64,000 nucleotides of DNA, taken from Medicago truncatula (Eukaryota > Streptophyta > Magnoliopsida > Fabales > Fabaceae). Of this stretch, positions 983 through 59,819 are shown piece after piece; positions within the stretch are counted from its first letter, which is position 1, and each line of letters begins with the position of its first letter. A program made the position numbers and the translations under genes. The stretch lies in assembly GCF_003473485.1 (NCBI RefSeq), contig NC_053049.1, forward strand, positions 17,732,001 through 17,796,000, in the 5' to 3' direction. A model generated the notes under the pieces. The model was not told the origin of the DNA. It saw nothing but the letters and a program-made list of their open reading frames with translations, and ran no database searches.

Positions 983-1027
983 CCCAAAAAGTTTTTTTTT
1001 TTTTTTTGACAAGGTCAGCCCAAAAAG
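983..1027. repeat. Micro-insertion: poly(T) plus GACAAGG tag with 9-bp flanking duplication
   Basis: The 9-mer CCCAAAAAG at 983-991 recurs at 1019-1027. The 27 bp between are a T run followed by GACAAGGTCAG. Read on the minus strand this is a short tag ending in poly(A), as expected of an almost completely truncated retroinsertion. See the family finding. Confidence 0.6.
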
Positions 1028-1187
1028 GTTGAAAGTGGTTGTTTTCTTTATATATAGTAAATTATATTATAACTTATGGAGAATAGAACCATTTTAACCT
1101 TCATCGTATAATTATCAACAAAATACATCATATATCTCTAAAGAAAAACATTATATAATAATTTAAAATAAAAATATTAAAAATAAT

Positions 1188-1237
1188 AATAATTTCAGAA
1201 ATTTTTTTATTTTTTTTTGAGAAAAAATAATTTCAGA
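1188..1237. repeat. Micro-insertion with 12-bp flanking duplication
   Basis: AATAATTTCAGA occurs at 1188-1199 and again at 1226-1237. The 26 bp between are T-rich and end in GAGAAAA. Confidence 0.6.
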
Positions 1238-1290
1238 CATGATGCATGGGAACATATAGTAGTTGGACATACTTCAATATTTCACTATAT

Positions 1291-1338
1291 AAATATTTCA
1301 CTATATTTTTTTTTTTGAAAGGAAATATTTCACTATAT
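1291..1338. repeat. Micro-insertion with 16-bp flanking duplication
   Basis: AAATATTTCACTATAT at 1291-1306 is repeated exactly at 1323-1338, around a 16-bp T run ending in GAAAGG. A similar 14-mer also directly precedes the left copy (about 1277-1290), so slippage at this site is an alternative explanation. Confidence 0.6.
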
Positions 1339-1390
1339 AAAATACCAAATTTTAGTTTTATCACCATTAAAAAGAAAATCAAGAGGTTCC

Positions 1391-1486
1391 CTTGAGCTTA
1401 GCTTAGTTGACAGAGACAATGCATAATATGCAGGGATGAAGTTCGAATCCCAAACACACCATCAAAAGTATTAAGTTAAAAAAAAA
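1391..1486 (+). mobile_element. tRNA-derived SINE-like unit
   Basis: The start resembles a tRNA A box (GAGCTTAGCTTAGTTGACAG). A good B box, GTTCGAATCC, lies at 1441-1450, and the unit ends in an A run at 1478-1486. That order (internal Pol III promoter, short body, A-rich tail) is typical of plant SINEs. No clear target duplication was found, so the edges are approximate. Confidence 0.55.
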
Positions 1487-2290
1487 TTATAACAAAAAAA
1501 TAAATCATTAACACATTAAACTATAGACATAGTGTATTTTTTTGAGTAAAATTTTACAATACTACTATTAAATTCTTTATTGAACGTGCCAAAATATCAA
1601 TGAAATACCATAATAAAATAAGAAAACAAACTTAAAACTTGAAGTCAAATTTAAATTTAAATTTTACTCACCAGTTGAATCTTTGAATGAGTTTGAACAA
1701 ACGTTGGAAGTGAGTACCCTATACTGCAATGTTTTTTCAAAGAACAAGCAAGTATATGGAGCGAAGAAACAAACAAAAAAGATGAAAAAAGACTAAAGCT
1801 TCGTAGAGTTTTATTTTTTGGGAGAGTGACTTTTCCCAAGCAAAAATAAAACTGGAAGATGGGGTGATAAGATTTATGGAATGGATCTCTAATGATAACG
1901 TGCAAATGAAGATGACGAACAAATTAGTATGAGAATAGGTCACTTAGGATTCAATTTGATTAAACATGTACAGTAAAATAATAGAAAAACAAAAATCGTA
2001 ATCATCAAGCAATAATTTTTTTTTTAATCGATCAACAAATAAGTGTTATTTCGTTATTACCAACTTTTAAACCATACAATACAATCAACAATCTTAACTA
2101 AAGTTTAGACTCGTATCAAAAAATTTCAGTTCGATTTATATATATACACACACTTGTTATCTCATCAAATATATAACAAACAAAATACATTCACTTACTT
2201 ACAAGACGGTTAGCAGTTTACTAAGCTTTATGAAAAATTGGATCAACAATATCACCATCCCTTCTTCAACAAGTTCTAAAATTTCAATTA
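1487..2290. other. AT-rich spacer, no gene seen
   Basis: Short open frames here (for example 1657-1943, minus) have no recognisable domain and AT-driven composition. Nothing else is supported. Confidence 0.5.
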
Positions 2291-2339
2291 CCCCAAATGT
2301 AATTTTTTTTTTTTTTTTTTTAACAAGCCCCAAATGTAA
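2291..2339. repeat. Micro-insertion with 12-bp flanking duplication
   Basis: CCCCAAATGTAA at 2291-2302 recurs at 2328-2339, around 25 bp made of a T run and AACAAG. Same architecture as the units at 983, 1188 and 1291. Confidence 0.65.
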
Positions 2340-2992
2340 ATTTTGTTATTATTGTCTTCAACACTAACTCGTCCATGAAACTGAATTCACTATAATTTCA
2401 TTGGCTATATAAATGGCACCACTGCCAGTCCAGCCCCAACTGATCTAGTGCACAAACATTGGAAAAGTGGATATATTTTGGAGAAAAAATTATCAAGTAG
2501 TTTAATGGTTAGAAATTCATTTTTTTTAGGAGCATTTTTAATAGGCTGAACTAAAGGGGATAAACTATGTTGTTTTTTGTGAGGTCAAATAGCCATGTAG
2601 AATTTAATAAATTTATAATTGATCTAAGTAGTTTTTACTTTAATAATGATTGTTTATAAAGAACTCAAACTTGATCCACATGTCTATATTTTATTACTAT
2701 TTGTAATCGATTTTGATTGAAATATAAAAGATTGAAGATTTTGATAAGGGTTTGCAAGTAATTAATGTTCACATAGATTAAGGGACTAAATTGAATGTTC
2801 ATTATAAAATCAAGGAAGCTTGGATTATGCATAAATAACGAAATGATGATCAATCTGAAGGAAATGATGTAGTCACTCCTCTCTCCCTTTGTTCTCTTTT
2901 CCTTTCTCTTTTATGTACTAAGAATGCCAATGCCAATAATTGTTGGGTTATCATCTATCAATTGTATCTCTTTTTCAATAATTAATTTGCAA
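2340..2992. other. AT-rich spacer, no gene seen
   Basis: No supported gene or named repeat. The stretch ends at the A immediately before the Helitron-like 3' terminus. Confidence 0.5.
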
Positions 2993-3024
2993 CTAGACCA
3001 TTGACCCGTGCTAACGCACAGGTC
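2993..3024 (-). other. Helitron-type 3' terminus (hairpin plus CTAG)
   Basis: The arms GACCCGTGC (3003-3011) and GCACAGGTC (3016-3024) pair on either strand, with one G-T type mismatch and a 4-nt loop. The minus strand then ends CTAG at 2993 with T next. This matches the CTRR|T rule of Helitrons. Confidence 0.6.
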
Positions 3025-3980
3025 ATACAACAAAAAAAAATTACAGCGCAAATATGAAAGTAAATATTTTTCTTGAATCGTAAAAATAGTAAAATTCAAT
3101 TCGTAAAAAAAATTGCCAGAAACGTCTTTAAGTACCATATTAAACAATTTTCATGACATCGACCCTATTACGGAAACATAACATATAAATATAATGACAT
3201 AATTTATTGAATAAAAGGAAATCCAACGTCTGTCGACATAAAAATAGTACCATGTCGACATAAATAAATAATAAGAGAAAATTTATGTTTGTACTTTTCA
3301 TGGTTGACATGTGTAGAGCAGCAGGAGATCAAGAAAACTTAAGCAAGATAATGGTCAGAGGGAATTGGATCATTATGAAGACCATGCATTTCAAAATAAT
3401 TCCTTCCCTTCATTGTAATGCTACCTCCCAAATAAATGTTTATATAGGACTACACAAGTTTCTAAGTTTTATTTTAATTAAGGTAGCAACTTGAGTAAAT
3501 CCGCTACTCACCTTATCATATGAATTTAGCTTGTAAACCTTATCATATAGAAGAACTGCTACACATTGTGGTAAAAACAAAATTTGCTGATCATTGCATA
3601 TTTACCAAAGCAATTTCTCTCTTATGGTCACCTGAAAAGTATTAATCCAAATAAGTTTGTCTAACCTTTTCTCTAGAAGTAATAAAATGTTGTTATTAAG
3701 TCTCTAAATTAATAGTATACTTTTTGCAATGAAGTTACCAATTCATCACAGTTTGGTTAACTGTTAACTGATTTTTGTATTTGTTTTGGTTTGCAAATGT
3801 GAAAGTTGATTCATCTTGTTGACTAATATTACCACATTCATGCTTGAACAAAACTTTATTTAGGTGTACTGACAAAAGTTTGCAGAGCTAAGCAAGTACA
3901 ACCAACACAGCAATACAATGAAAATTAAAGACCAAAATGTAAAAAAATAAAGGAAAAAAACTGAATCCTAAATGTCTGAT
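3025..3980. other. Non-coding 3' part of the Helitron-like block
   Basis: AT-rich sequence between the hairpin and the end of the RPA-like gene. No coding frame on either strand is convincing. Confidence 0.4.
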
Positions 3981-6900
3981 TCATGGAGATTGAAGATTCG
4001 GTAACAAAGCAGATAGTTCCAGCATTAGATCAAGTTGAACAACTCTAGTGTCTTTGGGCTCAATCTTGACACGAACAGCCCTGTTAGGTTTTGTAACCGA
4101 TGCCTGACCAGCTTCACCGTGATCAACAGCTACAGAGTCAATGCTATCAGAGGACCGCTTAAGACCTGTCTTGCTAGTTCGTGTGCCAATCACACAAGTA
4201 TTGCTGCATGAGTCTTCAGCCTCTTGTACATCCTGCAGACATTTGTGTTAAAAAAATTTGTTTAAATTTCCTACAGATTAAATTTTCTGCATTTGATTGG
4301 CTATTGTAGATTATATATAATTAATCAATGAAGTGCCACCTCAACATTATAATTGTTTGCTGCAACACCATTCACACTAAGCTCTTCAACAGATCCATCG
4401 TTGGGTTTCTATCACACATACATCAACAAAAGAACCAATTAGTCATAGGATGATTTCCTTATGAACATTAATTAATCTAAAACAGTTATGAGATTGTAAT
4501 ATCAGATATGAACTACCTCCAAATTATACTTAGACATGAACTGTTCGATGACACCAACATCGTCAGATGCCTTCTTAACAGCATAATTCCTATACTTCTT
4601 CACGATATTTCCTTCACCAACCTCAACCTTGAAAAGAACTTGCTTTTCAATAAGCACATTAAAATCAGGAGGATAATCATTGGTGCCTTCTCCCTGTTGA
4701 AAAATCAGAAGATGTTAGTTGAAAGTTCCTTGCATAAAAAAAAAAAAAAACCTCATATATAGACCATGCAATTATCCACTACCTTCTCATGTTCATTGAT
4801 TAAGTTCTGCACATTACGCCCAATAAATTGCGTCACTTGGCGATCAAAAAGAACAAAAGTAGCGGACCCTGTATCGTCCATCACAATGACATGCAGCTTG
4901 AACCTAACAAATAATCAACCGTATCAATAAACTTCTACGTATCATAAAAACAATTATTATATTCGGATGAGATTTAGATACCTAGGCACAACACTTTTGC
5001 AAGTTTTTCACTTGCGACACCGGAGCATTCCATTGTCAACAGTGACCAATGTAGCACATTGGATACACGAACGAAAGTACCACTCAACCTCAGTTTCGAT
5101 CTCACATATAGTGGCAAGTACCGAACCTTGACACACCTGTAAAAAATTCACCGCCTTTTGCATAAAATTCTTGAACATAAATATCAATGATGAATCGGAA
5201 AAAATATTCAAAAATCTCTAAAATAGACAACTACCTGAGTTGACTCAATCATACTTTCGATTGTCATTCTCTTGGTGTTGAGCAAGTCATCCGAAAGAGA
5301 TGCAGAGCTGTTTATGGAAATCTGGCTAACACTTTGGGTCAACTGGAGCGATGTTTTTTTCATACTGATAAAAGTATAACAATCTCATTAAAAGAATGAA
5401 ATTCAAGCAGAACAAATAATAAAACTCAGGACAATTATGCAAAATGTCAAGCTCCATCTTGTATTTTTATTTTTTTAAACAAACCATATATGAATTAATT
5501 CTTAAGTCTGTAAATTGTAGAAATATAAGATCATAAATTAGTGTCGCCTAACTCTTGGTTGCTATGTCATCATATGTGGTATCAAGTTAAACAATCATAG
5601 CAGCTCATGGTTTCATTGATGCAATAATTATAGGTTATCAAGTTTTACAAAATACGTCCACACCAATCATAAGATTTTAGTGTCTACTTTCTATAAAAAC
5701 GTAAATGCTTACCCTGCGATGTATGTAGCAACTTCAGGTAAATTTAAGTATCAATTTAGTCCCATAAAACGCATTAACAATCCCCATTGCACCTAGTTTA
5801 ATCAAATTGAACAGGAAGTGAACATTTTCTACCAATATTTCATGTGTAGATATTAACAGAAAGTAGAAACTAAAAACCGTGAAATACCTAAATATTTGCG
5901 TGTCTTGCAAAACTGCAATATCAATACAACAGGAGAAGAGTTGTCGTGGTTAACAAAAAAGCTCACAATTTTGTCAGCATGTTCACCCCAAAGAGAGCAA
6001 TGCAAACGGTTGTTCCTGCAATCAAATATTAGGCAATAATCAATGCATCCACACAATGTTTATCAAACTTATATTACATGAAAGAGGCAAAAATCAAAAG
6101 ATAAAACTCACTCCAAATCTTGCAAAGTGAGATCAATCACTTTGCTCTTCCTGCCCTCATTTTCAGTTTCCTTTACATCACCCCTTTCAATTACATGACC
6201 AATAACATCTGATATAGTGTATAGAAAAGTAAAAACAACTGTAAGTATTTTCTCAGGGAGTGCAGAGAGTTATAAGTAATGCACATCACACATTCACAAT
6301 TGAAGTCTTACCAGCAGATGTCTCCTCGACATTTGAAGAGAGGATTTCATTGAATGACATGAACTAAAAAACATTGATAGGGATAGTAGGTAAGTCTTTT
6401 TTGGTAAAACTTGAGTTGTGCAGCATACCAAGTTTGTGTTTGTGGGAAGTTATCTTATATGGACCTTCATTAATACCGACGATTGCATTGTGAAGCTCAT
6501 ATGTAGCCCCTTCCTCAACCATTGACCTGAATCTTGCCACCAAATCCTTTCTAACTGTGGCGTGGATACGTCCACCCTATAGATGACAACAAAAGTAGGA
6601 AATAGGTGATTAAAATAATAAATTACAGAGAAATATAAACCATCATGTATGGAGGTACTATTAATAGCTCATATTGATCATATTCATTTGTCATATTCAT
6701 CATAGTGCCGCAAAATATAATATAAACCATATGCATGGACGTACTATTTATAGCAACTATATATATGAGTATAAGTTTTATTTCCATTAACTATATATGT
6801 TTTCAGATTGTAAACTATATAGCAACTATATATATGCTATCTCAATTTTTCTTTAAGCATGCAAAAATTAAACAACGCAGTAAGTTAAATCGAACTTAAT

Positions 6901-7178
6901 CTAAGTAATTTATGTCATATTCAATTCAATTAGTGATTCAAACATGCATATGCAACAAAAAGAGAATGGCAACAATATATGGTTGTAAGAGGTTAATTTA
7001 AAAAATAACATTGAAAAATTGCACAAACCTTTGCATCCACCAGCAACATGTTCATGAATATGATGTTAGTTGGATCTTTTTTAGCTGGAATTAACCAAAT
7101 GTGAGCAACACGCACACACATCTTCAGGTTCTTCCTTCCTCCAGAAACAGCTGATAGTGGGGTGTATATGCTAGACAT
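3981..7178 (-). pseudogene. Replication protein A 70 kDa-like (RPA1) pseudogene, about 11 exons
   Basis: Relatives bind single-stranded DNA through OB folds. Minus-strand exons with GT-AG edges read: 7178-7029 (starts MSSIYTPLSAV, ends LLVDAK); 6576-6312 (GGRIHATVRKDLVARF); 6208-6112 (VIGHVIERGDVKE); 6015-5888 (NNRLHCSLWGEHADKIVSFF, the OB-fold core); about 5790-5700; about 5362-5235; 5145-4980 (WYFRSCIQCATLV, the C-terminal zinc-finger region); about 4903-4783; about 4695-4516; about 4409-4341; 4232-3981. Three defects are visible: an in-frame TAG at 6364-6366 of exon 2, a frame change in exon 5 before LPEVATYIAG, and a TGA in exon 7 within the zinc finger just before KTCKSVVPR. Middle exon edges are approximate. 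An unrecognised splice form could rescue one defect, hardly all three. Its position inside Helitron-like ends suggests transposon origin. Confidence 0.75.
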
Positions 7179-7284
7179 TTTTGTTTGCCGCTTTTGAAAA
7201 AGGAAGATGCTTACTTAGAACCAGATTATATTGCTATTAGGTTGTGATGTATATATAGAATGAAGGGACAAAAACCGATGAGTA

Positions 7285-7550
7285 GTGTTTGATGGAAAGG
7301 AAGCGATATGTATGATGTTTTTCATAAAAAACAGGAAATACTGTTAGGTAGGGGAGGATTGTATAGTGGAAACGATCTCTTTAGTGTCTTTCATTGAAAA
7401 TAGCACATTTTGTTAAAGTGCTGAGTGGGGTTCGATGGGAAGGAAAGGATATGTATGATGTTTTTCATAAAAAAAAAAACAGAAAATATTGTTACTGCAA
7501 ACGATCTGTACAGTTGCTTTTGAATAAAAATAGCACATTTTGTTAGGTAG
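7285..7550. repeat. Imperfect tandem duplication, about 130 bp x 2
   Basis: Two successive blocks (about 7285-7415 and 7427-7545) share, in order, GATATGTATGATGTTTTTC, a gapped middle, AACGATCT, and AATAGCACATTTTGTTA. They lie just upstream of the RPA-like start and downstream of the B3-like fragment. No coding role is seen. Confidence 0.7.
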
Positions 7551-7754
7551 GAAAAGATTGCATCATAAGGAAATAATTGGTTTTTTGCTTTCCTTAAAAA
7601 GAGGACATATTGATAAGTATTGGCTCCCAAAAAATTTGGAACCAAACTTAATAATAATTCTAAGTAATTCTAATTTCTCAAAAAGAAATAATAATAATAA
7701 TAATAAAAATAGAAACCACAAATAAGAACACCAACATACTCATCGTAATTATAC

Positions 7755-8669
7755 CTTTGTGCATCTTTCCGAATGCTGGGTGTACCCTCAATTAAAGTTG
7801 AAAGACTCTCAGGCGCAACAATGAAGACATTGGCCAATCTACAAAAAAAATGTTCAGAAATCAGTTTGACAAAATTGGTAGGCAAGGGCAGAAACTAATT
7901 GCTTTCCATCCCTTTGTTAAAAAAAAGTCACCATTAATGCTATCGACTAAGACCTCAAATTGATTGCCGTTTGGATCAGTCAATGTTGCAAAGCGCCCAA
8001 TCCGATCTCCAAAATCACTGCCGAACATTCTTGGCAAGCATACGGCACCCTGGTGAAAACAACAAAATTATTTGTTTATTATAACTGTTTTAAATTGGAT
8101 CTATAAATATTTATCACACTATGGTAGGCAAGACCTACCGTAATTTAATAAAAAAGGACATTGAACTAATATGGATGATTAGGCAAATATGTGGCTTATG
8201 AACAAATATTTAGTTTATGCAAACAACTATCTGTCAATTTTCATATAGCAACATTTATACAAAAGAGCACAATATATATAGTAAACACATAGTTTCTAAA
8301 ATAGAACAAACATTTACAATGTGCAAACAACACTATAAATTTAGCAAACAACACTATTCAACAACTATCTGTTTATAATTTAAAAATAACATTGTAGCTT
8401 GTTCTGTACAACGAAAATGAAAGTATACTCACAGTGTCGAAGTCGTACTCGACGATGTATGTTCTGTACTTTACTTGTAGCTTGTTGATTGCCTTGTCAT
8501 ATTCTGAAAGTGGGTTTTTGAGCAAAGGACCTATAAAAAAACGAAAGTGAAATTTTTGTCATGTATATATGGCAGAAAAAATATAATTAGATTAAAGGAA
8601 TATGTGTTAAAAAGTTTACCAGTTAGGCAGTGATAGGACAAAAGAGTCTCTATATTTATGCCAGCCATG
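7755..8669 (-). pseudogene. B3-domain-like (plant DNA-binding) gene fragment
   Basis: Minus strand. The exon at 8530-8433 encodes PLLKNPLSEYDKAINKLQ and then VKYRTYIVEYDFDT, and joins in frame to an exon starting at 8049 that encodes GAVCLPRMFGSDFGDRIGRF and, further on, FEVLVDSINGDFFLTKGW. A hydrophobic-basic strand pattern ending NGDxxLxxGW is typical of plant B3 domains (RAV/REM class), which bind DNA. A possible first exon with ATG at 8669 (MAGINIETL, to 8620) does not keep frame with 8530, and after GWKAI the frame runs into a stop. A further in-register piece (APESLSTLIEGTPSIRKDAQ) lies at about 7840-7755. It looks decayed and has the same orientation as the RPA-like gene. Confidence 0.5.
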
Positions 8670-8858
8670 TTTTCTAAAATAGCGATGAAAAGAATAGGGT
8701 TAAAAGTGATGAAAAGAAGAGAATCAAAGAAAAGAAAAAGGTATGTTAACTAACCAGGAGTGATGTTGCTTCTAGTATGTGGTGAAGCAAGAGAAAAGGA
8801 AGAACCGATTTCTTTTGTTGAAGAAAATAGGAGATTTGGCTATGAGTGTGATTTGGCA

Positions 8859-8988
8859 GATCTGTTGAAACAAAAAAATTGAACAAATAAAATAAGTCGA
8901 TCTGTTGAAACAAATAAATAGAACAAATAAAATAAGCATTAAGGTCTGTTGAAACAAAAAAATAGAACAAATAAAATAAGCATTAAGG
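8859..8988. repeat. Tandem repeat, three units of 40-45 bp
   Basis: Units begin at 8859, 8899 and 8944. Each carries TCTGTTGAAACAAA followed by GAACAAATAAAATAAG. The last two also share CATTAAGG. Confidence 0.9.
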
Positions 8989-9316
8989 TTAAAACAGTAA
9001 ATTAAGGCAATAGGGTTTCCATATTAGAAAATAGGATGTACAAATGGAAGGTGTATGAAAAAAAAAACAGAACCAAATTGACATGACTTATTGAACAACA
9101 TAGGAACAAAATTTATAAGATTTTTGCTTTCGCATTTGACTTACTCTATAGATTTAAAGAGTGAATATGATTATCCCTCGGTAAGAAATCACACTTCCCC
9201 TGTTTCTGCATCTGTCAGTCAATCATCAAATGAGCATATATTCAAATGAGCAAGATATAATCAGGGCTTACGGGTTTAGGTTACCAAATGGGCATAAAAT
9301 CAATTGAATGAAGCTT

Positions 9317-10472: not shown

Positions 10473-10515
10473 AAAGGAGAACATTTTTTTTTTTTTTAAG
10501 GAAAAGGAGAACATT
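10473..10515. repeat. Micro-insertion with 13-bp flanking duplication
   Basis: AAAGGAGAACATT at 10473-10485 is repeated exactly at 10503-10515, around a 17-bp insert of a T run and AAGGA. Confidence 0.7.
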
Positions 10516-10638
10516 ATTATACATGAATTGATCGGTCTTTAAATATGAATTGTATGATTTTATAGCTAAAAGCAGTAATGTTAATCAGAAACGAATTTTG
10601 TTTTTATTAATATAGCTCTAATTGATAGTTAGTAAATA

Positions 10639-27449: not shown

Positions 27450-28292
27450 TTTGTTAGGTTAAATAATTGCGAACCTAATAAAGCAAATGAGTGGGAAAAA
27501 ATTAGGTTAAGTTATTGCAGATGTAACAAAATTACATATATAGATGATGCATATAGTGATATGATCATTGAAGTGACTCAACTGAGAATTTCTAATGGTC
27601 AATATTATCACAAAAATGTCAATAGAAAAATTCTCAGTTAATTTTAATATCTCAGTTAATTTTGTTTTCGTATATAGTTTGTTTTTTTTTTCTTGAAAGA
27701 AATGTATGTAGTTTGTTGAAATATATTATCGCCGATTTTGTTTTTAAAAACAGAAAATTAAAACAAATTCTCTTAAAAAATTATTGGATATGACGAGTAT
27801 TTATTTATAGACGTGGTACTTTGAGAAATTTACGATACATATAAAAAAAAGTTTTTTTTGAGTAAAGTTTTTTAAAAAAGTTGTTATTGTATTATTAGTA
27901 GATATGCATAATAAACAACCTCAAAGAAGACCTCTCAAAATAATATAAACAAAAAAATTAAAAAAATAAATAAAATTAAAAAATATACTGAGAGAGTGAA
28001 GTGTTAGTTTATTAAACTACTACCGACACACGCACACTTTTTAATGATTCTCTCTCTTGTTTGTTACCATCTTGAATTAATCAACAACAACTCTTTGGAA
28101 TTTTAGCCTTGGTGTATGATATGAGATTAATATGTGGTTTAGGTTGTAAGATCATAGAGGATTTCTCATATCATGATTATTAAATCATGATAGGAATATT
28201 CATTTTACAATTGTGATAGGAATGAAATTTGATTATTAAATCAATGGGGTTGATTTAGCGGAAGATTTTAGATTTATATATTGTGGTAAACT
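27450..28292. other. AT-rich spacer, no gene seen
   Basis: Contains one micro-insertion at 27670-27717 and otherwise only A/T-rich sequence. Confidence 0.5.
27670..27717. repeat. Micro-insertion with 14-bp flanking duplication
   Basis: GTATATAGTTTGTT at 27670-27683 and GTATGTAGTTTGTT at 27704-27717 (one difference) flank 20 bp of T run plus CTTGAAAGAAAT. Confidence 0.6.
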
Positions 28293-31049: not shown

Positions 31050-31330
31050 ATTAATCTCTTCAATATAGCTGAGACTCATTTAAAAGGTTAACATTACAAT
31101 AAATGTTTTTTTCATACGCACTAACTAGAAAACGAACTTTCAATCAAACAATTAAGTGACATAAGTATCTAACCTTGTGTCAAACTATGTTTTTTTTTTT
31201 ACAAACATGTGTCAAATAATGTTGATTTCTTCCTTTCTTGTATTTGGTTATCTTTTTTATATGGTAGATATACAAAATGATAATAATTGATGTATATATT
31301 TGATTATTTTTTTATGATAAATATACAAAA
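31050..31330. repeat. Dispersed repeat, copy 2 (pair of 18505-18800)
   Basis: Colinear with 18505-18800. This copy holds additional sequence around 31170-31250, including the micro-insertion at 31176-31223, which the other copy lacks. Confidence 0.65.
31176..31223. repeat. Micro-insertion with 16-bp flanking duplication
   Basis: TGTGTCAAACTATGTT (31176-31191) and TGTGTCAAATAATGTT (31208-31223), one difference, flank a 16-bp T run plus ACAAACA. Confidence 0.65.
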
Positions 31331-39230: not shown

Positions 39231-39830
39231 TGGATGTGTGGCATTAAGGCTAGATATGTCAAATATGGAGGGAATTTTTTGATTGAGGTGTTTTTAAAGA
39301 AATATAATATTTGCATTCACCCTCCTAAATTACCCAAGATTATTGAAGTAATATGACAACCTCCTCTCTTTCATTGGGTCAAATGTAACACATATTGCTC
39401 AGCAAATACCAATACATTATCTTGTGGAGGAATTTTCAGAGATAAAGACTCAAATCTCCTTCTTTTCTTTGCAGAAAATACAAGTGCTAGAAATTCTTTC
39501 TATGCAGAGCTATCTAGAGCAATGAGAGCCATAGAGCTAGCTAAGCAACATCAATGAAGCAATCTTTGGTTAGAATCTGATTCAGTTTTATTGGTAAATG
39601 CTTTAAGAATTCATCTCTGATTCCTTGGCCTTTAAGGAACAGATGGAACAACTGCCTGCTTATCACTAGGGGAATGAATTTTATTGTAACATATGTGTAT
39701 AGAGAATGGAATAGTTCTGCAGATGATTTATCCAACACAAGTTTATCTCTTGATCACCTCACCATTTGGTTAGAGATCCCTACTTGTTTTCGATTTGTAC
39801 CCACGAAGTATCTGAATTAAATATTTTAAT
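39231..39830 (+). mobile_element. LINE-type RNase H fragment
   Basis: The plus frame around 39400-39570 reads SCGGIFRDKDSNLLLFFAEN, TSARNSFYAELSRAMRAIEL, AKQHQ and then, after a stop, SNLWLESDSVLLVNA. This is the RNase H fold (G-G-x-x-R-D, E in ...YAELxA..., D in ...ESDS...) at the C-terminus of plant LINE ORF2. Several stops and frame changes follow. 5'-truncated and old. Confidence 0.7.
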
Positions 39831-42838: not shown

Positions 42839-44757
42839 ATGGCTTATTTTCTACTACTAGCATCAATGATAGTTGGGATTGGAATGTCAGATTCATCCAA
42901 AGAGAAACAAGAATGCACAGCTCAATTAACAGGGCTAGCATCGTGCCTTCCCTATGTTGAAGGTGAAGGAAAAACTCCAGCACCAGATTGTTGTGATGGT
43001 CTCAAAACACTTCTCAAGACAAACAAGAAGTGTTTGTGTGTAATTATCAAAGATCGTAATGATCCTGATTTGGGTGGTATAGTTATTAATGTTACTCTCG
43101 CTTTGAATCTTCCAACAGTTTGTAATGCCCCTGCCAATATCTCTAAATGTCCTGGTAAATAAAGTTTTTCTATGTTACTTTATCAGAAGATTAGTCACTT
43201 TAGTCGCTGAACAGGAAATGTCGTCATTTTAGTTCATGAATGCAGATAAATTGTAAAATAGTCCCTGAATGTAGACTTTATTAGTCAATTTAGTTCCTGA
43301 ATGCAAACTCCGTTAGTCAATTTAGTCCTTAAATGTAGACTCCGTTAGTCACTTTAGTTCATGAAATTGACCAGCAGAGTCGACATTCATGGACTGTTTT
43401 GCAATTTCTCTGCATTCAGGGACTAAAATGACTACGTCTTTCTCATTCAGGGATTAAAATGATTAATTCCCCTTATTTATTTTTTATTTTTTTTGGTCAA
43501 GTATTCCCCTTACTTTATTTCATACTTTTATGATATAGAAATGAGTCAAATTGATTATGGGATATAACATAACATAAAAGAGATTTTTTTCTTGTTAATC
43601 TTTGAATTAGAGCTGCTGCACATGGATCCCAATTCAGCTGAGGCTCAAGTTTTTTATACATTAAACAATGGCTCCAGCAATATTAGTCCAAGTGCTGCAC
43701 CTAGTCCATCAGGTAATGATTGATATGAAACTTTGCTTATTATCATTATAAAGAAAATTAAGATTACAAAATTAATTATTATACACTAAATAATTGAAAA
43801 TACATCAACGCATGATCTCAAGATGTCTTCCTAATATAAATTTGTTTTATATTTTTTTTCTTTTTCAACACTGTTAAAAATATAGTTCTCTATTTTTTTT
43901 TTTAAATAAAAAAATCTATTTAATTTATCAATTATTATAAGTTAATATTATATTATAAATTATGGTCTATTGTGTTAAGCACTAATTAGTTGATGAATAA
44001 GTGCGATTGAACTATTCTTTCTAAATGGACCGTGATGGGTTGAATCATTTAGCTATTTAAATGTCATTCCATCAGACGTTTAGCTAATCCCGTATAGAAT
44101 ATCATCACTTTTAATGAATATGTGTCCCTGCCCTCAGTCGTTTAACTATTTAAACGTCATCCCATCAGACGGTTAAACATTCTGAACAGTACTCTGAAAA
44201 CCTAACGCTAAACGGAATGAGAGTAGTTATTCCTCTCATAACTTGATAGTTATGGCGGTAACCTAAACATACAAGGTACATAATTTCTTCTTCTTTATTT
44301 GTTACTGATGATATGCTATAACTTGTATCTAATAATCCATGGCTAAATCCTAAATCTTTTATCAATTTTATCATATGTATGTGACTAAACAAATATGCAA
44401 TATTTTATTTCTCAATAATTGTACATTTAATTCTTCAAAAATAAAATTATTCAATAATATTTAGTGAAAACCACTTAATTGTTATCGGGAAAAAATTAAG
44501 ATTATTCAATGAATAATAATAAAATTGTGGGGGCAGCAGTCTCTAATTGTATTATTTAATTAATAATAAGAAATCATGAGTGTCATTCATGTGTATATTA
44601 TGTGTCTGTAGATGGAGCAAGCAGCCAAGCAAGAAGTACAACACAGAAGAATGATGCATTCAGAAAAGAGAAGAGATTGATTGGTTTAGAGTTTTTGGCT
44701 ATTGGGGTTTTAGTTTGGTTTTTATTTGGCTCTGCTGCTGGAAACTTTTTCATTTGA
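42839..44757 (+). CDS. GPI-anchored lipid-transfer-type protein (LTPG), 3 exons
   Basis: Exons 42839-43154, 43611-43712 and 44612-44757 join in phase with GT-AG edges (187 residues). The ATG at 42839 has the plant context GCCATGGCT and directly precedes a signal peptide (MAYFLLLASMIVGIG); an upstream in-frame ATG at 42815 would add 8 residues. The mature part has the eight-cysteine pattern of lipid-transfer proteins: QEC..ASC..DCC..KCLC..VC..KC. Exon 2 adds a Ser/Pro linker (ISPSAAPSPS). Exon 3 ends with basic residues and a hydrophobic tail (LIGLEFLAIGVLVWFLFGSA), as expected for a GPI-anchor signal. Members sit outside the plasma membrane and help move cutin, suberin or wax lipids. The exact paralogue cannot be named. 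Intron 1 contains a repeat and a micro-insertion. Confidence 0.92.
43185..43465. repeat. Repeat with TTAGTCCCTGAATG-type words in LTPG intron 1
   Basis: Variants of TTAGTCAATTTAGTTCCTGA recur four or more times, and the right half carries the complement CATTCAGGGACTAAAATGA. The left end GTCACTTTAGTCGCTGAAC and right end CAGGGATTAAAATGAT are roughly inverted, suggesting a MITE about 280 bp long, fully within the intron. Confidence 0.65.
43466..43516. repeat. Micro-insertion with 10-bp or longer flanking duplication
   Basis: ATTCCCCTTA at 43466-43475 recurs at 43503-43512 and both continue with similar TTTATTT. The insert is T-rich and ends GGTCAAGT. Lies in LTPG intron 1. Confidence 0.6.
43713..44611 (+). 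other. LTPG intron 2
   Basis: 0.9 kb of AT-rich intron. Two near copies of TTTAGCTATTTAAATGTCAT and CATCAGACGxTTA occur at about 44048-44090 and 44143-44178, an imperfect 95-bp tandem duplication. Confidence 0.6.
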
Positions 44758-46541: not shown

Positions 46542-46593
46542 AATGTTCTTCACTAATATTTCCTTCAAAAAAAAAATGTTCTTCACTAATATT
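46542..46593. repeat. Micro-insertion with perfect 19-bp flanking duplication
   Basis: AATGTTCTTCACTAATATT at 46542-46560 is repeated exactly at 46575-46593. The 14-bp insert is TCCTTC plus an A run, i.e. the plus-strand form of the poly(T)-GAAGGA type inserts elsewhere. Best single example of the family. Confidence 0.8.
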
Positions 46594-49458: not shown

Positions 49459-49511
49459 AAGTAGTGGAGTAAAATGCGTCAAAAAAACAAAAAAAAAAGT
49501 AGTGAAATAAA
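49459..49511. repeat. Micro-insertion with about 15-bp flanking duplication
   Basis: AAGTAGTGGAGTAAA (49459-49473) and AAGTAGTGAAATAAA (49497-49511), two differences, flank a 23-bp insert ATGCGTC plus A run. Confidence 0.6.
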
Positions 49512-49512
49512 C

Positions 49513-49979: not shown

Positions 49980-50185
49980 TTTATATTCAATGGTTAGGTA
50001 CTTGTTTTTTTGCTGATATCTGTTTCTCTATGTTACAGGCATATATTCAACCGAATTAACTGAGTTAACTAATTTCAACCGGTTCCACGAACCAGTTTTT
50101 AAAACACCGGTAACAGTATATGCAAATCTCCAATTAAGGTTACACAGGACACAACAACCTCCGAAGAAAACAAAAAAATAAAATA

Positions 50186-53100: not shown

Positions 53101-55188
53101 TATGACTGAGAGTAGTTCGCTGACAGTCTGTTGTTCTCGTTCTAGGTATCCATCTTCAGTTTTTGTTGGTGATACATATACATACTTTGCAGGGATGACT
53201 ATGGCTGTGGTTGGTATTTTAGGCCACTTTAGGTATGTCCTTGCTTTATCTGACAAAATATTAATCTGGCTATCCGCTTTTATGTGTGTTTTCAGTGCTT
53301 TTCGAGTTCAAACTTGTGAATCAATTTTCTAATTTCTGGACTTGTATGAATCTTTTCATTCCTCTTTGTTAAGGAATTTTGCAGCATTTTATGCAAAGTT
53401 CTACCATTTTCTCTCTCCTTATGATGGATAAGATACCTTACTGTTTAGAAAATGGACAGTTGGATTTTTTATCTCAACCATGAACTTGTAATAATGATCT
53501 CCAAAGTCTATAATGTACAACTATCTCTATTTCTCATCTCAAATTCTTCCTTCTTCCTTAAAATATTTATAAATGTGATTATTGGATAATATATAAAAAG
53601 TAGAACGCTTCTTTGGAGTAATATGACTTTGTGAGCTATGTTTAAAACACTAGCAAGGGTGTGCAAAATACCCAATTTGGATGGATTATCCGTTTATGCG
53701 GCTGAAGAACTGGATGTCCGTATCCAATTTCTCTTCTCTTAGGCTCAATTTTCTTCCTGTTCGTCTTCTACTGTGCCATTTATGATTATCTAATGGATCT
53801 TGATCAGATTTACATCAGCTGCATAATCTCGCTGAATCAGATCTCGTCGCCATCATCACTGAATCTGATTCAGATCTTCAGCAGCTTTGTTGACTCTCCG
53901 CCTAATGAGATTCTTTCTGCTGTCGACTCGCCGTCATATGAGATTCTTTCGGCTGTCGATAGATATGAAATCTTGTTGGCATCCTCTTTCTATGTCGATT
54001 TGGATTCTCTGATTGTAATAGACTATTTGGCACCACCGCGAATCTTCTGTCCGATAATCAGATCTGAACTTTCTCACCTTTACGCAAATGGAAGTCTGTA
54101 GAGGAATACTAGTACATTCTAAATTTTCCGAAATTGTATTTTTTCTTTTGAAAGTCCAAAAAAACATTTGATTCTGCTTTTTGTTTGTTTGATCTGTTTT
54201 TATAATGTGTTTCCTTACTGCAAAATTTTGAAGTTGCAATCATTATTTTAATTTTTAGAACAGTTCTCACCTTGTTCTAATTTGTTTAATTATGTGTAAT
54301 ATTGTTGTGGATTGTTGTAATTCATATCTTCTAATTGTTATTACCGAGAACATAACGGATAGAAAATGAGATCAAGCTAATATGAACTGATATTTTGAAT
54401 TCTAAAGTGTGTTGCATTCTGGTTTGGTTATTAAATCCAATCCATTTAAGTGGTTTTTATTTGGATATGGATAGATCCAAACCATGAACAAGCATGTCTA
54501 CTAGGTTCTGGACAATAGATAAACAGTAGTGATATAAATCTTAAAATTGGTGCACCATTCCTCTGGGATTTATGACCTTGTGTTATAATGATTATTATTA
54601 GTTGCCTTGTAATAATCTCTTAAATTTTTTTTGCTTCAGTGAAACACTCTTGATTTTCTTCCTACCTCAAGTTTTGAACTTTCTCCTGTCGCTCCCCCAG
54701 GTTTGACACTAACAGAATCTCCATTTTCGATACATTAAATCTCTTCTGAACATGTTTTCTAACATAGAATATACATTTTTCCTCCAGCTTTCTGGCTACA
54801 TTCCATGTCCACGTCATCGTCTGCCAAGGTAGGCTTAACATGGATGTAACTTATTGTTTATTTCATGCATCTTGCTTGGTTGAAACCTCATGTGTAATCT
54901 ACTCATTCAGGTTTGACCCTCAAACTGGGCTGCTGACCGGAACAAATGATGGAACCCTCGTTAACTTCTTTCTAAGAAATTTAGGCAAGAAATCTGAGAA
55001 ATCACTTTGTATATATCTTCTTATTTTTCAGGTGATGATTCCCCGTTCTCCTGTTTATTTTTACCTTTTTGGTTTTCAATTCGACTAATATCTAAGTTGA
55101 ACTTGTATCAATTTTTTTTTTGGAACAGGGTATTGCATGTTGTTTCTGTTTCTTGCTGAGGTATTTCCTTGCTGGTTGGTACAAATGA
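50186..55188 (+). CDS. ALG7: UDP-GlcNAc:dolichyl-phosphate GlcNAc-1-P transferase (GPT/ALG7), 11 exons
   Basis: Makes GlcNAc-PP-dolichol from UDP-GlcNAc and dolichyl phosphate at the ER membrane, the first step of N-glycan assembly and the tunicamycin target. Exons: 50186-50541, 51963-52050, 52335-52426, 52523-52641, 52733-52848, 52924-53051, 53146-53232, 54640-54700, 54788-54828, 54911-55031, 55129-55188. All junctions are GT-AG and in phase, giving 422 residues, the family's normal size. Diagnostic blocks: [16 protein letters not shown] (catalytic acidic loop), [57 protein letters not shown] and the end [12 protein letters not shown]. Many hydrophobic helices. The N-terminal 40 residues are Pro/Gln/Thr-rich and cytosolic. 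Introns 1, 2 and 7 carry a SINE and two MITE-like insertions. No defect seen. Confidence 0.97.
51221..51359 (+). mobile_element. tRNA-derived SINE in ALG7 intron 1
   Basis: A-box-like CTCAGTGGCAAGAGCTTAGC, B-box-like GGTACTGAGTTTAAATACC, a short body and an A run at about 51347-51358. A possible target duplication is TGGGTTTCTCTC before and TGGGCTTCTCTC after (one difference). Confidence 0.65.
52107..52256. mobile_element. 150-bp MITE in ALG7 intron 2
   Basis: CATGGTTTTAAATTGCGG at the left end and CCACAATTTAAAACCATG at the right end are inverted copies with one mismatch. TGGTTTTAAATTGCGG is a known start of a widespread plant MITE. It lies between exons 2 and 3. Confidence 0.85.
53650..54504. 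mobile_element. Possible MITE-like insertion in ALG7 intron 7
   Basis: The left end CTAGCAAGGGTGTGCAAAAT with TTTGGATGG inside, and the right end, complement CTAGTAGACATGCTTGTTCA with TTTGGATC, are loosely inverted. GGGTGTGCA followed by TTTGGAT words suggests an hAT-like element. Within it, 53892-53957 is a 33-bp tandem duplication (GAGATTCTTTCTGCTGTCGA in unit 1), and the 103-codon frame at 53793-54101 is made by that repeat; I do not regard it as a gene. Confidence 0.4.
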
Positions 55189-56561
55189 AACACTAATCTG
55201 ATAAAGTAAGATATGGATCATGAGAACCACTCGAGAAGACTGAATTGTTGTATAATCATTTTTGTAGAAAAATCGTTTTTAGTGTAATTGGATATAGGAA
55301 TTTCTTGTTACTTGAATGTTGCATGCTAATTATCGCAACTTCAAAAACAAGTTGACATTGAAAACATCAAGTTATTTAATCTCTTCACAGTGGCAATTGT
55401 TTAAAATGAATACACTTGATTAGGAGTACAACATGCTCATGTATTTGGTTTGGTAATAAATATATCAATTTATTTTGACTATGATATTTCCAAGTTGGGG
55501 TATTAGGCTCAATCACAAGAGAAATGCATTTTCATTTTCAGCAATTAGACAAGAATAAGATACAGCTTTCAATAGTCTGTCTGATTCACATTCAAAACTG
55601 TCACATGGACCATGGTTACACTTATTTAGCGGGATTGAAAGTGGAACAGCATCATCTGAATGCGCGCGTAGTCATCATATTTGAGGCGGTGTGAAACATT
55701 AAATGTGAGTACATGTATTAGCTGCGATCCAGCACACTGATTAGTCATATTGCGCTAGATACAACCCTCATTTGGTACAGTTGTTATTACTTTATAGAAA
55801 AGACAATGAATTTACGCACTAAACAAACGAACGAATGACCATTGCTTCATTCATCAAAATAATGCCGAATAAAGGACTAAAAAAATTAAAAGAAACCACA
55901 AAAAAGTACCATTATGACCCTGACGAGTCAAGGATTCTGCACAACAACTAACTTCGCAGAAACAATAGAAATTGAGGAGTGCCTATCAAATACGTAGAGA
56001 AGGTTGAGAACCTTTTCAAACAGAGTTTTGAGAAACAGAGGTTGATCTTCTATATGCAGAAGTATTTGATTAATTTTCCTTGACACTCACAAATAAGTCA
56101 TCCACAAGCCAAACTACTAGTGATATGATCATGTGAACGATTCAACGTAAACTTTATAGACTCCTTCGAGAGGAGTTCCCAGTGAACCTGACATCAATTA
56201 ATGACACCGTCTATGTGATGAATATCACGGGTAATATAGCACGGTATATATGCACGTAGGATTCGGAGGATTTGTTGCTCTCTGCTTTTAAACGTTGGCA
56301 AACAATGGCGATAAAAAATAATGAGAATTTCAAACCTGGTCACAGAAAGAGGCAGGCAATTCAGACATTGCAATACTAGCAATAACTGTTCATTGTTTTG
56401 TCAACCTGATTTTAGACGTAGCAGTAGAAAAAAATAAGGAGGATTGCAAGGGAAGGAAGAATACATGAAGGACCAATACTACAATTTTCAACATTAAAAT
56501 TAAATTGAAAAAAAATTTGTCTCATTCTAGCCAAATTGGAGGCAAAATGATAATGAAAGTG
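55189..56561. other. 3' flank of ALG7 and unassigned spacer
   Basis: Likely 3' UTR to about 55400. The remainder is of mixed composition; short frames on both strands (for example 56194-56382 minus) show no domain. Confidence 0.4.
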
Positions 56562-56780
56562 CACTGCAGGGCAAACTTGGGTAACAATGAAACCCAAATA
56601 GAAAGATAAATTTTGATTGATCGGTTAAATATCACACTGCAGGTCAAACCTGGGTAACAATGGATCCCTAGTAGAAAGGAAAATCTTAGGTGTTCATTTA
56701 AAAATAACACTACAAAGCAAACCTAGGTAACATTGAAACCCTAATGGAAAGACAAATCTTGAGCGTTCAATTAAAGAAAG
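56562..56780. repeat. Tandem repeat, three units of 73 bp
   Basis: Units at 56562-56634, 56635-56707 and 56708-56780. Each begins CACTxCA, then GCAAACxTxGGTAACA-TGxA (variants), CCxxAxTAGAAAG, and ends with a TTCAATTAAA-like stretch. Divergence between units is about 20-25% by eye, so the array is old. Confidence 0.9.
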
Positions 56781-57926
56781 AATACCTTGTTAGAATTCAA
56801 TATTATGGATCTGTATGTCTTCAAACTAATGTTAAGATGGTTATATGTTTAATAGGAATAAGAGTTCTTAATCGGTACCACTTGATGAGAGGAAATTCTC
56901 AATGTCCAAGATACCATATACGGCTAGGAACATCGGTAATTTTTACTTAGTTTATGTTACTGAGTCTTTATGCTCACTATGTTTAGATGATGTTTCCAAG
57001 TTTATCTTGACATTAGAAAGTTGAAAAGTATGACCGGATTACTCGTCAGCAGTTCAATGTAGAACTTCTTCGTCACCCGATCATAGTTAGAGTAGTAGAC
57101 TAGAATGTTATTTCTTGTTCCAAAATTTGGCATTAGTGTTCTTGATTAAGTCCGAATTAAAATTTGTGGTCCAAGAAGGTAATTGCATCAAACCCAGTTT
57201 GAGACTCGATGTGCCAATGTTTCAGTAGTGAAACCATACACAATTTGCCAATAGCCATCCAAAGCTTTTATAGCTTCTCACAAATAATAGGCAGCGTGAT
57301 AGGTTGTTTTTGCAACATGCAATACCATATTGATGTTTTTCTTATGGTATGGTGATGGGAAATACATAGCTTTTAGACAAAGTTGTCTCAATTTAAATAG
57401 AGAAAAAATAAAATATGTTGCTAATTCTCTCATTGCTAAATTTAGCAAGAGAATTAAAGAGAAATTTTATATTTTTTCTTCGTAAATTTTTTTTATTAAT
57501 TTAATTTTTTTGTCGTAGTATCTAGAACCACTCCAACACTCGCCTCATTAATTCATTTAATTTCCACTTTAGTATCATCCATAACATTTAAAATAAATTT
57601 TCAACATTTACTCCAAGTTAGCGTAATAATGGAGGGTAAATGAGACTTTCTCTTCGTTGTCAGGGAAAGGTGGGTCCACATAAACTTGATCCCATTTTGC
57701 GAAACATTTTTCTTGTTTACTTCTGCTTAGGAAACACGCGGCTTTTATTATCATTTATCATCTTTTTTCTCTCTTATTTCTGTGTATCGGTTCTTTTTGT
57801 TTTTTATTATATTTTTGTTCCTATATATCGTAGGCTTCGTTTGTTCTCTCTATATATTATATCGTTTTGGTTTCTCCACCTTCATTTAGAACCATTGAAT
57901 GAGAAAGGAGTGTGAGAGAGAGAGAG
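56781..57926. other. Spacer and probable 5' leader of the ARF-like gene
   Basis: No recognised gene from 56781 to about 57600. From about 57640 the sequence becomes T/C-rich with a GA run just before the ATG at 57927, consistent with a 5' UTR; the 91-codon frame starting at 57640 is probably an artefact of this leader. Confidence 0.35.
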
Positions 57927-58193
57927 ATGGATTCTGTAGGTAGCGATGGTGCGTCTCGTTTAGTCTCTGGTAATCGACGTAAATTTATTTTCATCATTTT
58001 TGTTTTTTATTTTTATCACTTTTGTTCGTCCAATTATTTTTTTCACCATCATGTTCGTCTTTTAATTTATTTTTTTTATTTTGTTGTGAAAGATAATCTA
58101 TGTGCTCAACTCTGGCATGCATGTTCCGGATCTGTATACATCCCTAAGGTTGGGGAAAAGGTTTTCTATTTTCCTCAAGGACATGCAGAGCAG
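57927..58193 (+). CDS. Auxin response factor (ARF)-like, first two exons only
   Basis: Exons 57927-57969 and 58093-58193 join in phase (G|AT) to give MDSVGSDGASRLVSDNLCAQ, LWHACSGSVYIPKVGEKVFY and FPQGHAEQ. The LWHAC-x-G...VGEKVFYFPQGHAEQ block is the segment that precedes the B3 domain in every ARF. Exon 2 ends CAG|GTTCCG, a possible donor in phase 0, at the place where ARF genes normally have an intron. No B3, middle or PB1 exon is found in the remaining window, which is AT-rich DNA, then a LINE and a copia element. So the gene either has a very long, transposon-filled intron or is a 5' fragment. ARFs are nuclear transcription factors that bind auxin-response elements. Confidence 0.75.
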
Positions 58194-58359
58194 GTTCCGT
58201 CTTCTCTCCAATTTTTTTTTTTTATATTTTGAACTTTATCTTCATTGTAAAACAAATATGTTAACTTTTTCATCATTGTCATGTCATTTTTATTGAAAAG
58301 ATAAGGGCTTGAAATACATAAGATTTTTTTATAAGTAATTTATTGGTTAGAAATAGATC

Positions 58360-58446
58360 CATTGAGGTGAATAAGTGGAAAATCCGTGAGGTTTGAACTC
58401 CGACTGTTGCATACTTCATTGTCCATGCTAACCGAGATGTGCTCAC
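58360..58446 (-). mobile_element. tRNA-derived SINE-like unit
   Basis: Minus strand: GTGAGCACATCTCGGTTAGC (A box), then GACAATGAAGTATGCAACAG, then GGAGTTCAAACC (B box). Close to the SINE at 1391 in layout. It lies in the putative second intron of the ARF-like gene. Confidence 0.55.
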
Positions 58447-59448
58447 AAAAAACGCCATAAAATATTTTCTTTATCATCATAAATAATCCAATTTGTGTTT
58501 TTATAATTTTAATATTTGTTAAAATTTTAGCAAAAAAAAAAAATTGGAAAATAGTTCAATATTTGTTGAAGGATTTTAATACATACAGATTTCCTTTATT
58601 TCAATTTCGAGGGTTAGATTGAAAAGATTCACCAATTTCTTACAAAATTTTAATATTTGTTCACCGTAAATTAGCCACACCGAAACAAAATGTTCGTAAA
58701 TTTTTTATTTTTGATATTTTTATATTACTAATCTTTTTTATTTTGTTGGTAAAAGTTTTACTAGTCTTTTTATCAATTATACAGAGAACTATTAGAATAC
58801 TAATAATAATATATTAACGTGCTTGACTCTCCTTTTTTTCCCTTTCAAAAAGACTCATTCCGTCCTATATGATTTTTTATATTTTGCTCATATTACAATT
58901 ATTTTTCTTGGTCAAAAGAAACTGTTTTTTTCATAAATGAATTTTCCCAACACTACAAAGGAATACATATTCAATTTTAATATTAAATCTATAACATTAT
59001 GGGAACTAAAAATTTCAACATATTTTTCAAAAATATTTTTTCATTTAATTAATATTTTTTATACAAATTATTAAAATAGTATTAGTGGGTCAACAAAAGG
59101 AAGTAGTATTGTATTCCATGAATAGTTAGGCTGTTTAATATAATTCTATTTTCACCTCTTAAAAAAGTTGTATTTATCCTGAAAAAAATTAGTATTACAG
59201 CGTCACTCAAGTCATTTATTTTATTTTATAAAATCAATGTATTTGTGTAGTGGACATGTATCAATGACATCCGGTGAATAGATATCTTTTTTAAGGATGA
59301 AAGAATTTTTTTATTTTTTTTTACAAATGAAAGGAAAATTAAAGGCTTGTTGGTGCGATATTGTATTTTTCTTTTTTGAAATATTGTCGGTGCGATATGT
59401 TAATTGATGAAAAACAACGAATTAATATTAGCCTTTGGATGTTTTTGA
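58447..59448. other. AT-rich sequence, no gene seen
   Basis: No ARF-like exon, RNA gene or named repeat. Several T runs followed by short tags, without clear duplications. Confidence 0.5.
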
Positions 59449-59489
59449 GATTGTAACTTTTTTTTTTTGACAAGGTGGATTGTAACTTT
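59449..59489. repeat. Micro-insertion with 12-bp flanking duplication
   Basis: GATTGTAACTTT at 59449-59460 recurs exactly at 59478-59489, around a 17-bp T run plus GACAAGGTG, the same tag as at 983-1027. Confidence 0.65.
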
Positions 59490-59525
59490 TCAAAATAAGA
59501 AAAGATGTTGGCTTTTTTTTTTTGG

Positions 59526-59819
59526 GATGTTCATAGCATTTCATTTTTGAGATTATAACTTTATTTTTTTTACAGAGTGAGATTGTGACTTTTTTATTAA
59601 TAAAAGGAGCAATTCTTACCTAGTCACAAACCTAAATTAAAAATATTTGAACACACATACATAAATGGAGAGAATTAAAAGAAAAATAAATTAATCACAT
59701 CATATTTTTACTTTATCTTTAAATTTTTCTTATCAATGTGTGCGCGCCTAAGTCATTTTTATTTGTGTTTGTCACCAACTTAGACATTCTCTAATAAACG
59801 ATGTTCATAGCATTTCATT
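59526..59819. repeat. 20-bp direct repeat of the LINE ORF2 end, 254 bp apart
   Basis: GATGTTCATAGCATTTCATT is present at 59526-59545 and at 59800-59819. On the minus strand it is the last codons and stop of the LINE (NEML, TGA). Next to the outer copy lies an A run (minus strand, 59512-59523), the expected LINE tail. The 254 bp between look inserted, and contain a smaller duplicated unit (59548-59562 against 59578-59592). Confidence 0.7.
59607..59794. mobile_element. Possible MITE in the LINE tail
   Basis: The left end AGCAATTCTTACCTAGTCAC-AAACCTAAATT is loosely complementary to the right end AATTTGTGTTTGTCACCAAC-TTAGACATTCTC (about 70% over 37 bp by eye). Size and AT content fit a MITE. Target duplication unclear. 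Confidence 0.4.

Follow-up and report, generated by a model that had tools for sequence, protein, structure and literature searches.

Poly(A) insertions carrying about six LINE-derived bases appear to recur in the genome of Medicago truncatula

We analyzed a 64,000-nt stretch of the Medicago truncatula genome (C8:17732001-17796000, the window in what follows; 430 Mb in 42 contigs for the genome as a whole), in which an earlier note had described 12 very small insertions of one shared design. Each would be a nano-insertion: a T run plus a short tag, or the tag plus an A run on the other strand, between the two copies of a target-site duplication (TSD). The shared design is real: at all 12 coordinate pairs, direct repeats flank a spacer rich in T or A. 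The duplications had been put at 9-19 bp, which holds for the longest exact repeat at ten sites and fails at 59548 (7 bp) and 49459 (8 bp). Beyond the window, the genome appears to carry thousands of insertions that consist of a poly(A) tail and about the last six bases of a long interspersed nuclear element (LINE).

A scan of the window for runs of at least eight T with a nearby repeat (score of at least 10, mismatch -2) recovered seven of the 12 sites, at 992, 1306, 2303, 10484, 27682, 46576(-) and 59458, and a looser threshold added 31190, 49498(-) and 59564. The sites at 1188 and 43466, in which the T run is interrupted, were missed by both scans and have exact repeats of 12 and 10 bp. The strictest setting (score of at least 11, tag 4-8 nt) keeps four window sites: 1306, 2303, 10484 and 46576(-). 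We regard about seven of the window sites as convincing and the other five as weaker or older (Table 1). The window also holds, on the plus strand at 39336-39784, a relic of a LINE of another group, with L089 as its best match.

Table 1 Nano-insertions and related LINE features, in window coordinates
Feature	Position	Strand	Structure	Remark
Nano-insertion 1	979..1027	-	TSD 979-991; T16 + GACAAGG 992-1014; TSD 1015-1027, 1 mismatch	Element sense strand minus; tag corresponds to LINE 3' end
Nano-insertion 2	1188..1237	-	TSD AATAATTTCAGA; T7AT9 (interrupted) + GAGAAAA; TSD	Probably older
Nano-insertion 3	1291..1338	-	TSD 1291-1306; T run + GAAAGG; TSD 1323-1338; 16 bp perfect	
Nano-insertion 4	2291..2339	-	TSD 2291-2302; T19 + AACAAG; TSD 2328-2339	
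Nano-insertion 5	10473..10515	-	TSD 10473-10485; T run + AAGGA; TSD 10503-10515	LINE ends ..CTTTCCTT-A(n) present in genome
Nano-insertion 6 (weak)	27670..27717	-	TSD 14 bp, 1 mismatch; T10CTT + GAAAGAAAT	
Nano-insertion 7 (weak)	31176..31223	-	TSD 16 bp, 2 mismatches; T11 + ACAAACA	
Nano-insertion 8 (weak)	43466..43512	-	TSD 10 bp; interrupted T run + GGTCAAG	Tag recurs at L011:1716
Nano-insertion 9	46542..46593	+	TSD 46542-46560; TCCTTC + A run; TSD 46575-46593; 19 bp perfect	LINE ends ..TCCTTC-A(n) present in genome
Nano-insertion 10 (weak)	49459..49511	+	TSD 15 bp, 2 mismatches; ATGCGTC + interrupted A run	
Nano-insertion 11	59449..59490	-	TSD 59449-59461; T run + GACAAGGTG; TSD 59478-59490	
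Nano-insertion 12 (weak)	59548..59595	-	18 bp repeat with mismatches; T run + ACAGAG	Target itself locally repeated
Longer stub	59513..59544	-	T11 + 21 nt; 19 match 3' end of LINE relic 59808-60215	
Decayed LINE relic	59808..60215	-	C-terminal region resembling L092, L093, L086	Family whose 3' ends supply tags

TSDs are in excess beside T runs even when no tag is chosen. The sample for this comparison comprised the window and twenty 10-kb loci (261.6 kb), a non-random set because each locus was chosen for holding a GACAAGG site; these known sites were masked. A repeat no more than 25 nt away accompanied 48/346 runs of at least eight T, compared with 13/346 in the reversed sequence, and the excess was concentrated at tag lengths of 5, 6 and 7 nt (4, 14 and 9 runs versus 0, 0 and 2). 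Under a stricter score, with the TSD 4-8 nt past the run, 24/346 T runs qualified versus 27/6920 random positions, an excess of ~18-fold, and the same score gave 3/346 for reversed runs and 3/346 for A runs when the repeat was sought on the wrong side. When each run was represented by its best repeat, tags of 5, 6 and 7 nt were found at 3, 11 and 6 runs and any other length at two at most. A lone short repeat proves little, because direct repeats are frequent anyway (103 of 115 repeats lack a T or A run of at least eight); the rate beside T runs is what informs. The equal frequency around non-poly(A) fillers that would speak against insertion was not seen: TSDs flank spacers at random positions much more rarely.

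Particular tags are enriched after T runs throughout the genome. With the reversed pattern as control, T10GACAAGG occurs 76 times versus 8, T10GACAAG[ACT] 450 versus 19, T10GACAA[ACT] 2360 versus 236, T10GACGG 132 versus 31 and T10GGTACA 797 versus 40. We then compared TSDs (score of at least 10, tag 2-10 nt) in each site's own flanks with those in the flanks of mismatched sites. All 76 GACAAGG sites were examined, and 48 had a TSD, as opposed to 2/5700 mismatched pairs; a genome-wide scan of this kind had been suggested beforehand. The other tags behaved alike: 6/8 versus 0/56 for GACAAG[ACT] and 7/12 versus 0/132 for GACAA[ACT], both sets hand-picked among the matches listed, 14/20 versus 0/380 for GACGG and 9/20 versus 0/380 for GGTACA. 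At a permissive setting that is uncontrolled (score of at least 7, within 6 nt of the tag end), 60/76 GACAAGG sites have a TSD. Resolved inserts consist of T(n) and mostly 5-9 nt.

A longer element behind the 76 GACAAGG sites was considered and rejected, as BLAST found no element body. Two exceptions aside, a repeated flank (L028/L029) and a tandem duplication (L059, which carries a nano-insertion), no pair of these sites shares more than 25 bp onward from the tag; the remaining matches span 16-25 bp at the tag, where TSDs are alike. Neither pol III promoter boxes, as in a tRNA-derived short interspersed nuclear element (SINE), nor any other element body was found inside the inserts. Some tagged loci have unusual arrangements. 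Two nano-insertions adjoin at L037, and L107 holds a repeated T9-GGTACA unit. At L135, L140 and L150, and also at L114 and L131, an A run directly follows the tag, giving T(n)-tag-A(n) with no adjacent TSD found; these structures perhaps reflect insertion primed from both sides or insertion into an A run. Among 100 T10GACGG matches listed (of 132), 18 lie on one strand in C1:18935253-19016716, mostly at alternating spacings of ~2.9 and 5.1 kb, which marks a tandem array containing the motif.

The tags find counterparts at LINE 3' ends. In a search with zf-RVT (PF13966), 150 LINE places were scored of 6220 candidates, and 3' ends were read in 12 LINEs with long open frames and in 20 further loci, 15 of which have a run of at least seven A (some internal or ambiguous). 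In a first LINE family, 12-15 nt separate the stop codon from the tail, and a pyrimidine-rich stretch precedes the poly(A), as in the ends ..CTTTCCGTC-A20, ..CTTCCTCTC-A17 and ..CTTCTCTTC-A14; LINE ends downstream of zf-RVT include ..CTTCTTCTCTTC-A14 and ..CTTTCTTCCTCTC-A17. Patterns tied to the coding end of this family gave 106 matches (several rows per place) and none in the control, with ends such as CCGTC, CCTT, CTCTTC and CCCTTC, among others. The first-family pattern also retrieved 21 ends TTGTC-A7, 11 of which read CTTCTTGTC (..AAGTTTCTTCTTGTC-A(n)), and 35 ends TCCTTC-A7, each with a control of 0. Coding was checked in three fetched copies with CTTGTC ends (L178, L179 and L186, the first two of which look like duplicates), and all encode a first-family C terminus (61-63% identity to L086, E about 1e-10). 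A second family, also downstream of zf-RVT, has a 3' untranslated region (UTR) of ~34-45 nt with a GGGC..GCCC hairpin and the end ..TTGTACC-A(n) (L101-L103, with tails including A14 and A11; L100 ends ..TTGTAC). C termini matching RVT_3 (RNase H-like) were seen in two first-family LINEs and in one of another group.

The ends ..CTTGTC, ..TTTGTC, ..TCCTTC, ..TCCGTC and ..TGTACC match the tags GACAAG, GACAAA, GAAGGA, GACGGA and GGTACA, respectively, and, judged by these matches, the main tags represent the final ~6 nt of L1-type LINEs. We assign GACAAG to a LINE 3' end because 11 of the 21 TTGTC ends match it and longer copies encode a LINE C terminus. An element whose 3' end carries the tag, which the earlier note had called for, is thereby at hand for the main tags. 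That note had also envisaged one source transcript ending ...CCTTGTC-A(n): the GACAAG portion stands, the seventh letter, G, lies outside the LINE end, and several source LINE subfamilies take the place of the single one. The TSD begins exactly at this G in 22 of the 48 resolved GACAAGG sites; in 16 it is an apparent extra base belonging to neither LINE end nor TSD, possibly a non-templated base or a sign of an unseen LINE subfamily. The tags GGTTACAC and GGTCAAG, for which no source was found, recur after T runs at L017:4861, L010:2526, L011:1716 and window position 43495. A LINE ending ..CTTTCCTTGTC was tried as a source and rejected, with 15 matches at up to three mismatches versus 5 in the control and the full end in none.

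A LINE end can also be used to predict a tag. L086, which has a 1372-aa frame and ends CCGTC-A20, predicts GACGGA. The prediction held in 20 dispersed T10GACGG sites chosen so as to exclude known LINE ends: 15 have a TSD, perfect in 11, and all 15 TSDs lie 5-7 nt past the T run; one of the 15 sites is in a microsatellite.

Target-site statistics cover 111 inserts, among which the fetched tags are overrepresented. TSD length has its mode at 15-18 bp. The target consensus is TT/R (slash at the presumed nick), with T as the last TSD base in 95% and as the preceding base in 80%, percentages partly inflated by extension of the TSD into the T run, and with A (57%) or G (30%) next. The inserts have the features of L1-type insertions, namely poly(A) beside one TSD copy, a variable TSD of ~10-20 bp and a TT/A-type target. 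Among the loci in hand, related sequence spans the junction for 6 of the 111 inserts, at five loci. At three of these the paralogous empty site is clear to a few bases (L027 against window 569-734 and L071; L037 against L022; L078 against L076); the comparison is ambiguous at L049, at L071 and for L027 against L012. The earlier note had looked to empty sites in related accessions; those described here are paralogous sites within this genome. The TT/R targets, TSDs and empty sites all fit target-primed reverse transcription (TPRT).

The inserts stop sharply near six LINE bases. Of 526 T10GACAAG sites (76 + 450), 29 continue to GACAAGAAG, that is, nine LINE bases, and seven of these coincide with LINE-type ends. 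We fetched 20 of the remaining 22. Longer LINE 3' ends account for three (L178, L179 and L186), and L192 is a clear 9-nt insert. In ten, half of those fetched, the tag is short and the extra letters come from the TSD, a continuation due to chance only; some of these ten cases are weak. The other six gave no clear assignment. In the GGTACA sample (every fifth of the first 100 matches listed of 797; n = 20), ten sites have a TSD that defines a tag of at most 10 nt, and nine of these ten are compatible with an end at 6-8 nt when shared bases are taken into account. Two others, L163 and L171, carry 21-24 nt and run exactly to where the GGGC..GCCC hairpin finishes, which may be a second discrete stop in this family. 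Four tag classes, drawn from two LINE families, stop near 6 nt in this way, and the tag is unchanged whether the tail is as short as T10 or as long as T21. Copying had been proposed to end a few bases past the tail; it is indeed very short, with a cut-off closer to six bases than that wording implied.

We consider it very probable, from the sequence comparisons above, that these sites are end products of TPRT by L1-type LINEs in which the cDNA ended ~6 bases into the LINE body, and the TPRT reading of the earlier note is supported to that extent. A LINE endonuclease would nick the target after TT (TT/R), and the freed T's would act as primer on a LINE transcript's poly(A) tail. Reverse transcriptase would copy this tail and go no more than about six bases into the LINE body, and joining of the cDNA end to the other, staggered nick would leave a TSD of mostly 15-18 bp. 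For the stop, which we would place within first-strand synthesis, our preferred cause would be an early elongation checkpoint: on leaving the rA:dT tail, the complex would often switch to second-strand synthesis or repair. More specifically, and tentatively, the checkpoint may lie about six bases past the tail, where the rA:dT hybrid exits the primer grip, and most events may fail there, so that stubs are normal and long copies exceptional. This distance is consistent with human ORF2p, whose contacts reach position n+5 on the DNA primer and n+8 on the template (PMC10830420), and premature switching to second-strand synthesis has been proposed as a cause of 5' truncation for human L1 (PMC7617806).

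Several observations weigh against LINE-derived TPRT stubs or against a simple early stop. No TSD was found in 28/76 GACAAGG sites at a score of at least 10 or in 5/20 GACGG sites, and 8/20 GGTACA sites lack one at a score of at least 9, two of these eight being longer LINE ends; the share without a TSD thus ranges from a fifth to nearly half of the sites sampled. A repeat 12-16 nt beyond the run accompanies 11/346 T runs in the tag-free sample, seven of which are also in the 4-8-nt set. The tags GAGAAA, GAGCAA, GGTCAAG, GGTTACAC and GGAAAGA have no counterpart among the LINE ends read, and T10GAAGTG, predicted from LINE L091, is not enriched genome-wide (51 versus 64 for the reversed pattern); the L091 end may be nearly single-copy. 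A tag has only 5-7 nt, and attribution to a LINE draws on class statistics and the GACGGA prediction and not on individual sites. Human ORF2p, moreover, is highly processive in vitro, which runs counter to simple fall-off (PMC10830420).

The rival that bears most directly on the stop holds that the template was already a stub: nucleases would trim the LINE RNA from its 5' side to ~6 nt and poly(A) protected by protein or PABP, and this remnant would be copied in full. We regard this as doubtful, though a serious candidate. It accounts for a stop set by the tail boundary rather than by the start of synthesis, given the tag shared by tails of T10 to T21, and for an extra base at the 5' junction, as where the tag has seven bases and the LINE match six (16/48 GACAAGG sites) and in GACGGC, GACGGG and GACGGAG in the GACGG set; ORF2p adds such bases past the template end, and the authors of that study favor host cleavage of L1 RNA or intermediates over poor processivity as the cause of 5' truncation (PMC10830420). 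However, it would need an identical trim point in LINE families with unrelated 3' sequence, and the extra bases could also be products of stalling or belong to an unseen LINE subfamily. A stop imposed by RNA structure or a terminating ribosome near the 3' end is quite unlikely. The first-family stop codon does lie just 12-15 nt before the tail, and since 2/20 GGTACA inserts finish at the hairpin end, structure may stop the enzyme there. Yet among 21 LINE ends the predicted spacer between the last paired base and the tail can be anything between 0 and 14 nt, so that we rejected the hairpin base as the 6-nt determinant, and the terminating ribosome fell likewise: in the GGTACA family, with its UTR of ~34-45 nt and a hairpin 11 nt from the tail, 9/10 resolved short inserts still fit an end at 6-8 nt. 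Neither distance to the open reading frame nor distance to the hairpin explains six, and the GGTACA family largely refutes this model for the 6-nt stop.

Other rivals dispense with LINE templates or with reverse transcription that ended early. SINE or host mRNA templates are very unlikely: some recurrent tags are without a LINE end, and Medicago SINEs ending in poly(A) have been listed (PMC3747384), but the main tags match LINE ends, the lack of shared sequence beyond the tag among the 76 GACAAGG sites offers no such body, and the success of the GACGGA prediction weakens the case further. Break-repair filler, slippage or tandem duplication without reverse transcription has next to no probability. 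Short direct repeats around other spacers are frequent in AT-rich DNA; filler at repaired breaks, however, would be varied, with no common tag or poly(A) bias, and what we find is recurrent tags, one-sided poly(T), TT/R targets and the excess over random positions, with TSDs almost absent from mismatched flank pairs. We take these processes to be refuted because of the random-position and mismatched-flank controls together with the match between tags and LINEs. No more credible is the idea that the sites are remnants of longer LINE insertions whose bodies were deleted. Longer copies with the same ends do exist, but deletion would not repeatedly leave ~6 nt and an intact TSD, as in the GACGG inserts, where 11/15 TSDs are perfect, and no internally deleted intermediates were seen among the 20 GACGG sites, a set that left out known LINE ends from the start.

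A-rich microsatellites can be seeded by retroposed tails, in cases attached to Alu or L1 bodies. The sites described here resemble them as poly(A) tracts without a recognizable element, and differ in that tag and TSD reveal the origin. They share with 5'-truncated L1 and other LINE insertions made by TPRT the poly(A) tail, the TSD, the TT/A-type target and a retained element 3' end; new LINE insertions are often only a few hundred bp (PMC10830420), whereas the body here is ~6 nt with a nearly fixed end point. The closest single case is a simple poly(T) insertion in human NF1, which its authors considered possibly a severely truncated Alu, L1 or processed pseudogene (PMC3219598). It too is a tail-only insertion, but as reported it is one disease case, whereas the class described here recurs and takes its tag from a LINE. 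Plant L1-clade LINEs, the same kind of source element as here, have poly(A) ends, and one plant lineage has a conserved 3' stem-loop; such short products go unmentioned in the portion of that review available to us (PMC3747384). In the open-access literature searched, as far as its accessible text goes, we found no description of recurrent poly(A)-plus-six-base insertions with a fixed tag. What is new here is the sharp stop near six LINE bases.

Scaled by hand from the 261.6-kb sample (24 observed, 1-3 expected by chance), the genome would hold very roughly 20,000-57,000 such insertions, which suggests that many LINE copying events here halt almost at the start. The cause of 5' truncation in most LINE insertions has been called not well understood (PMC10830420), and a natural library of insertions halting at nearly one base gives direct access to an early step of TPRT. 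If the checkpoint reading is true, LINE activity normally yields abortive six-base stubs, perhaps tens of thousands in number. Because the element-derived part is about six bases, the class should escape repeat annotation, and it would also give rise, unrecognized, to A/T microsatellites, to small indels and to young markers.

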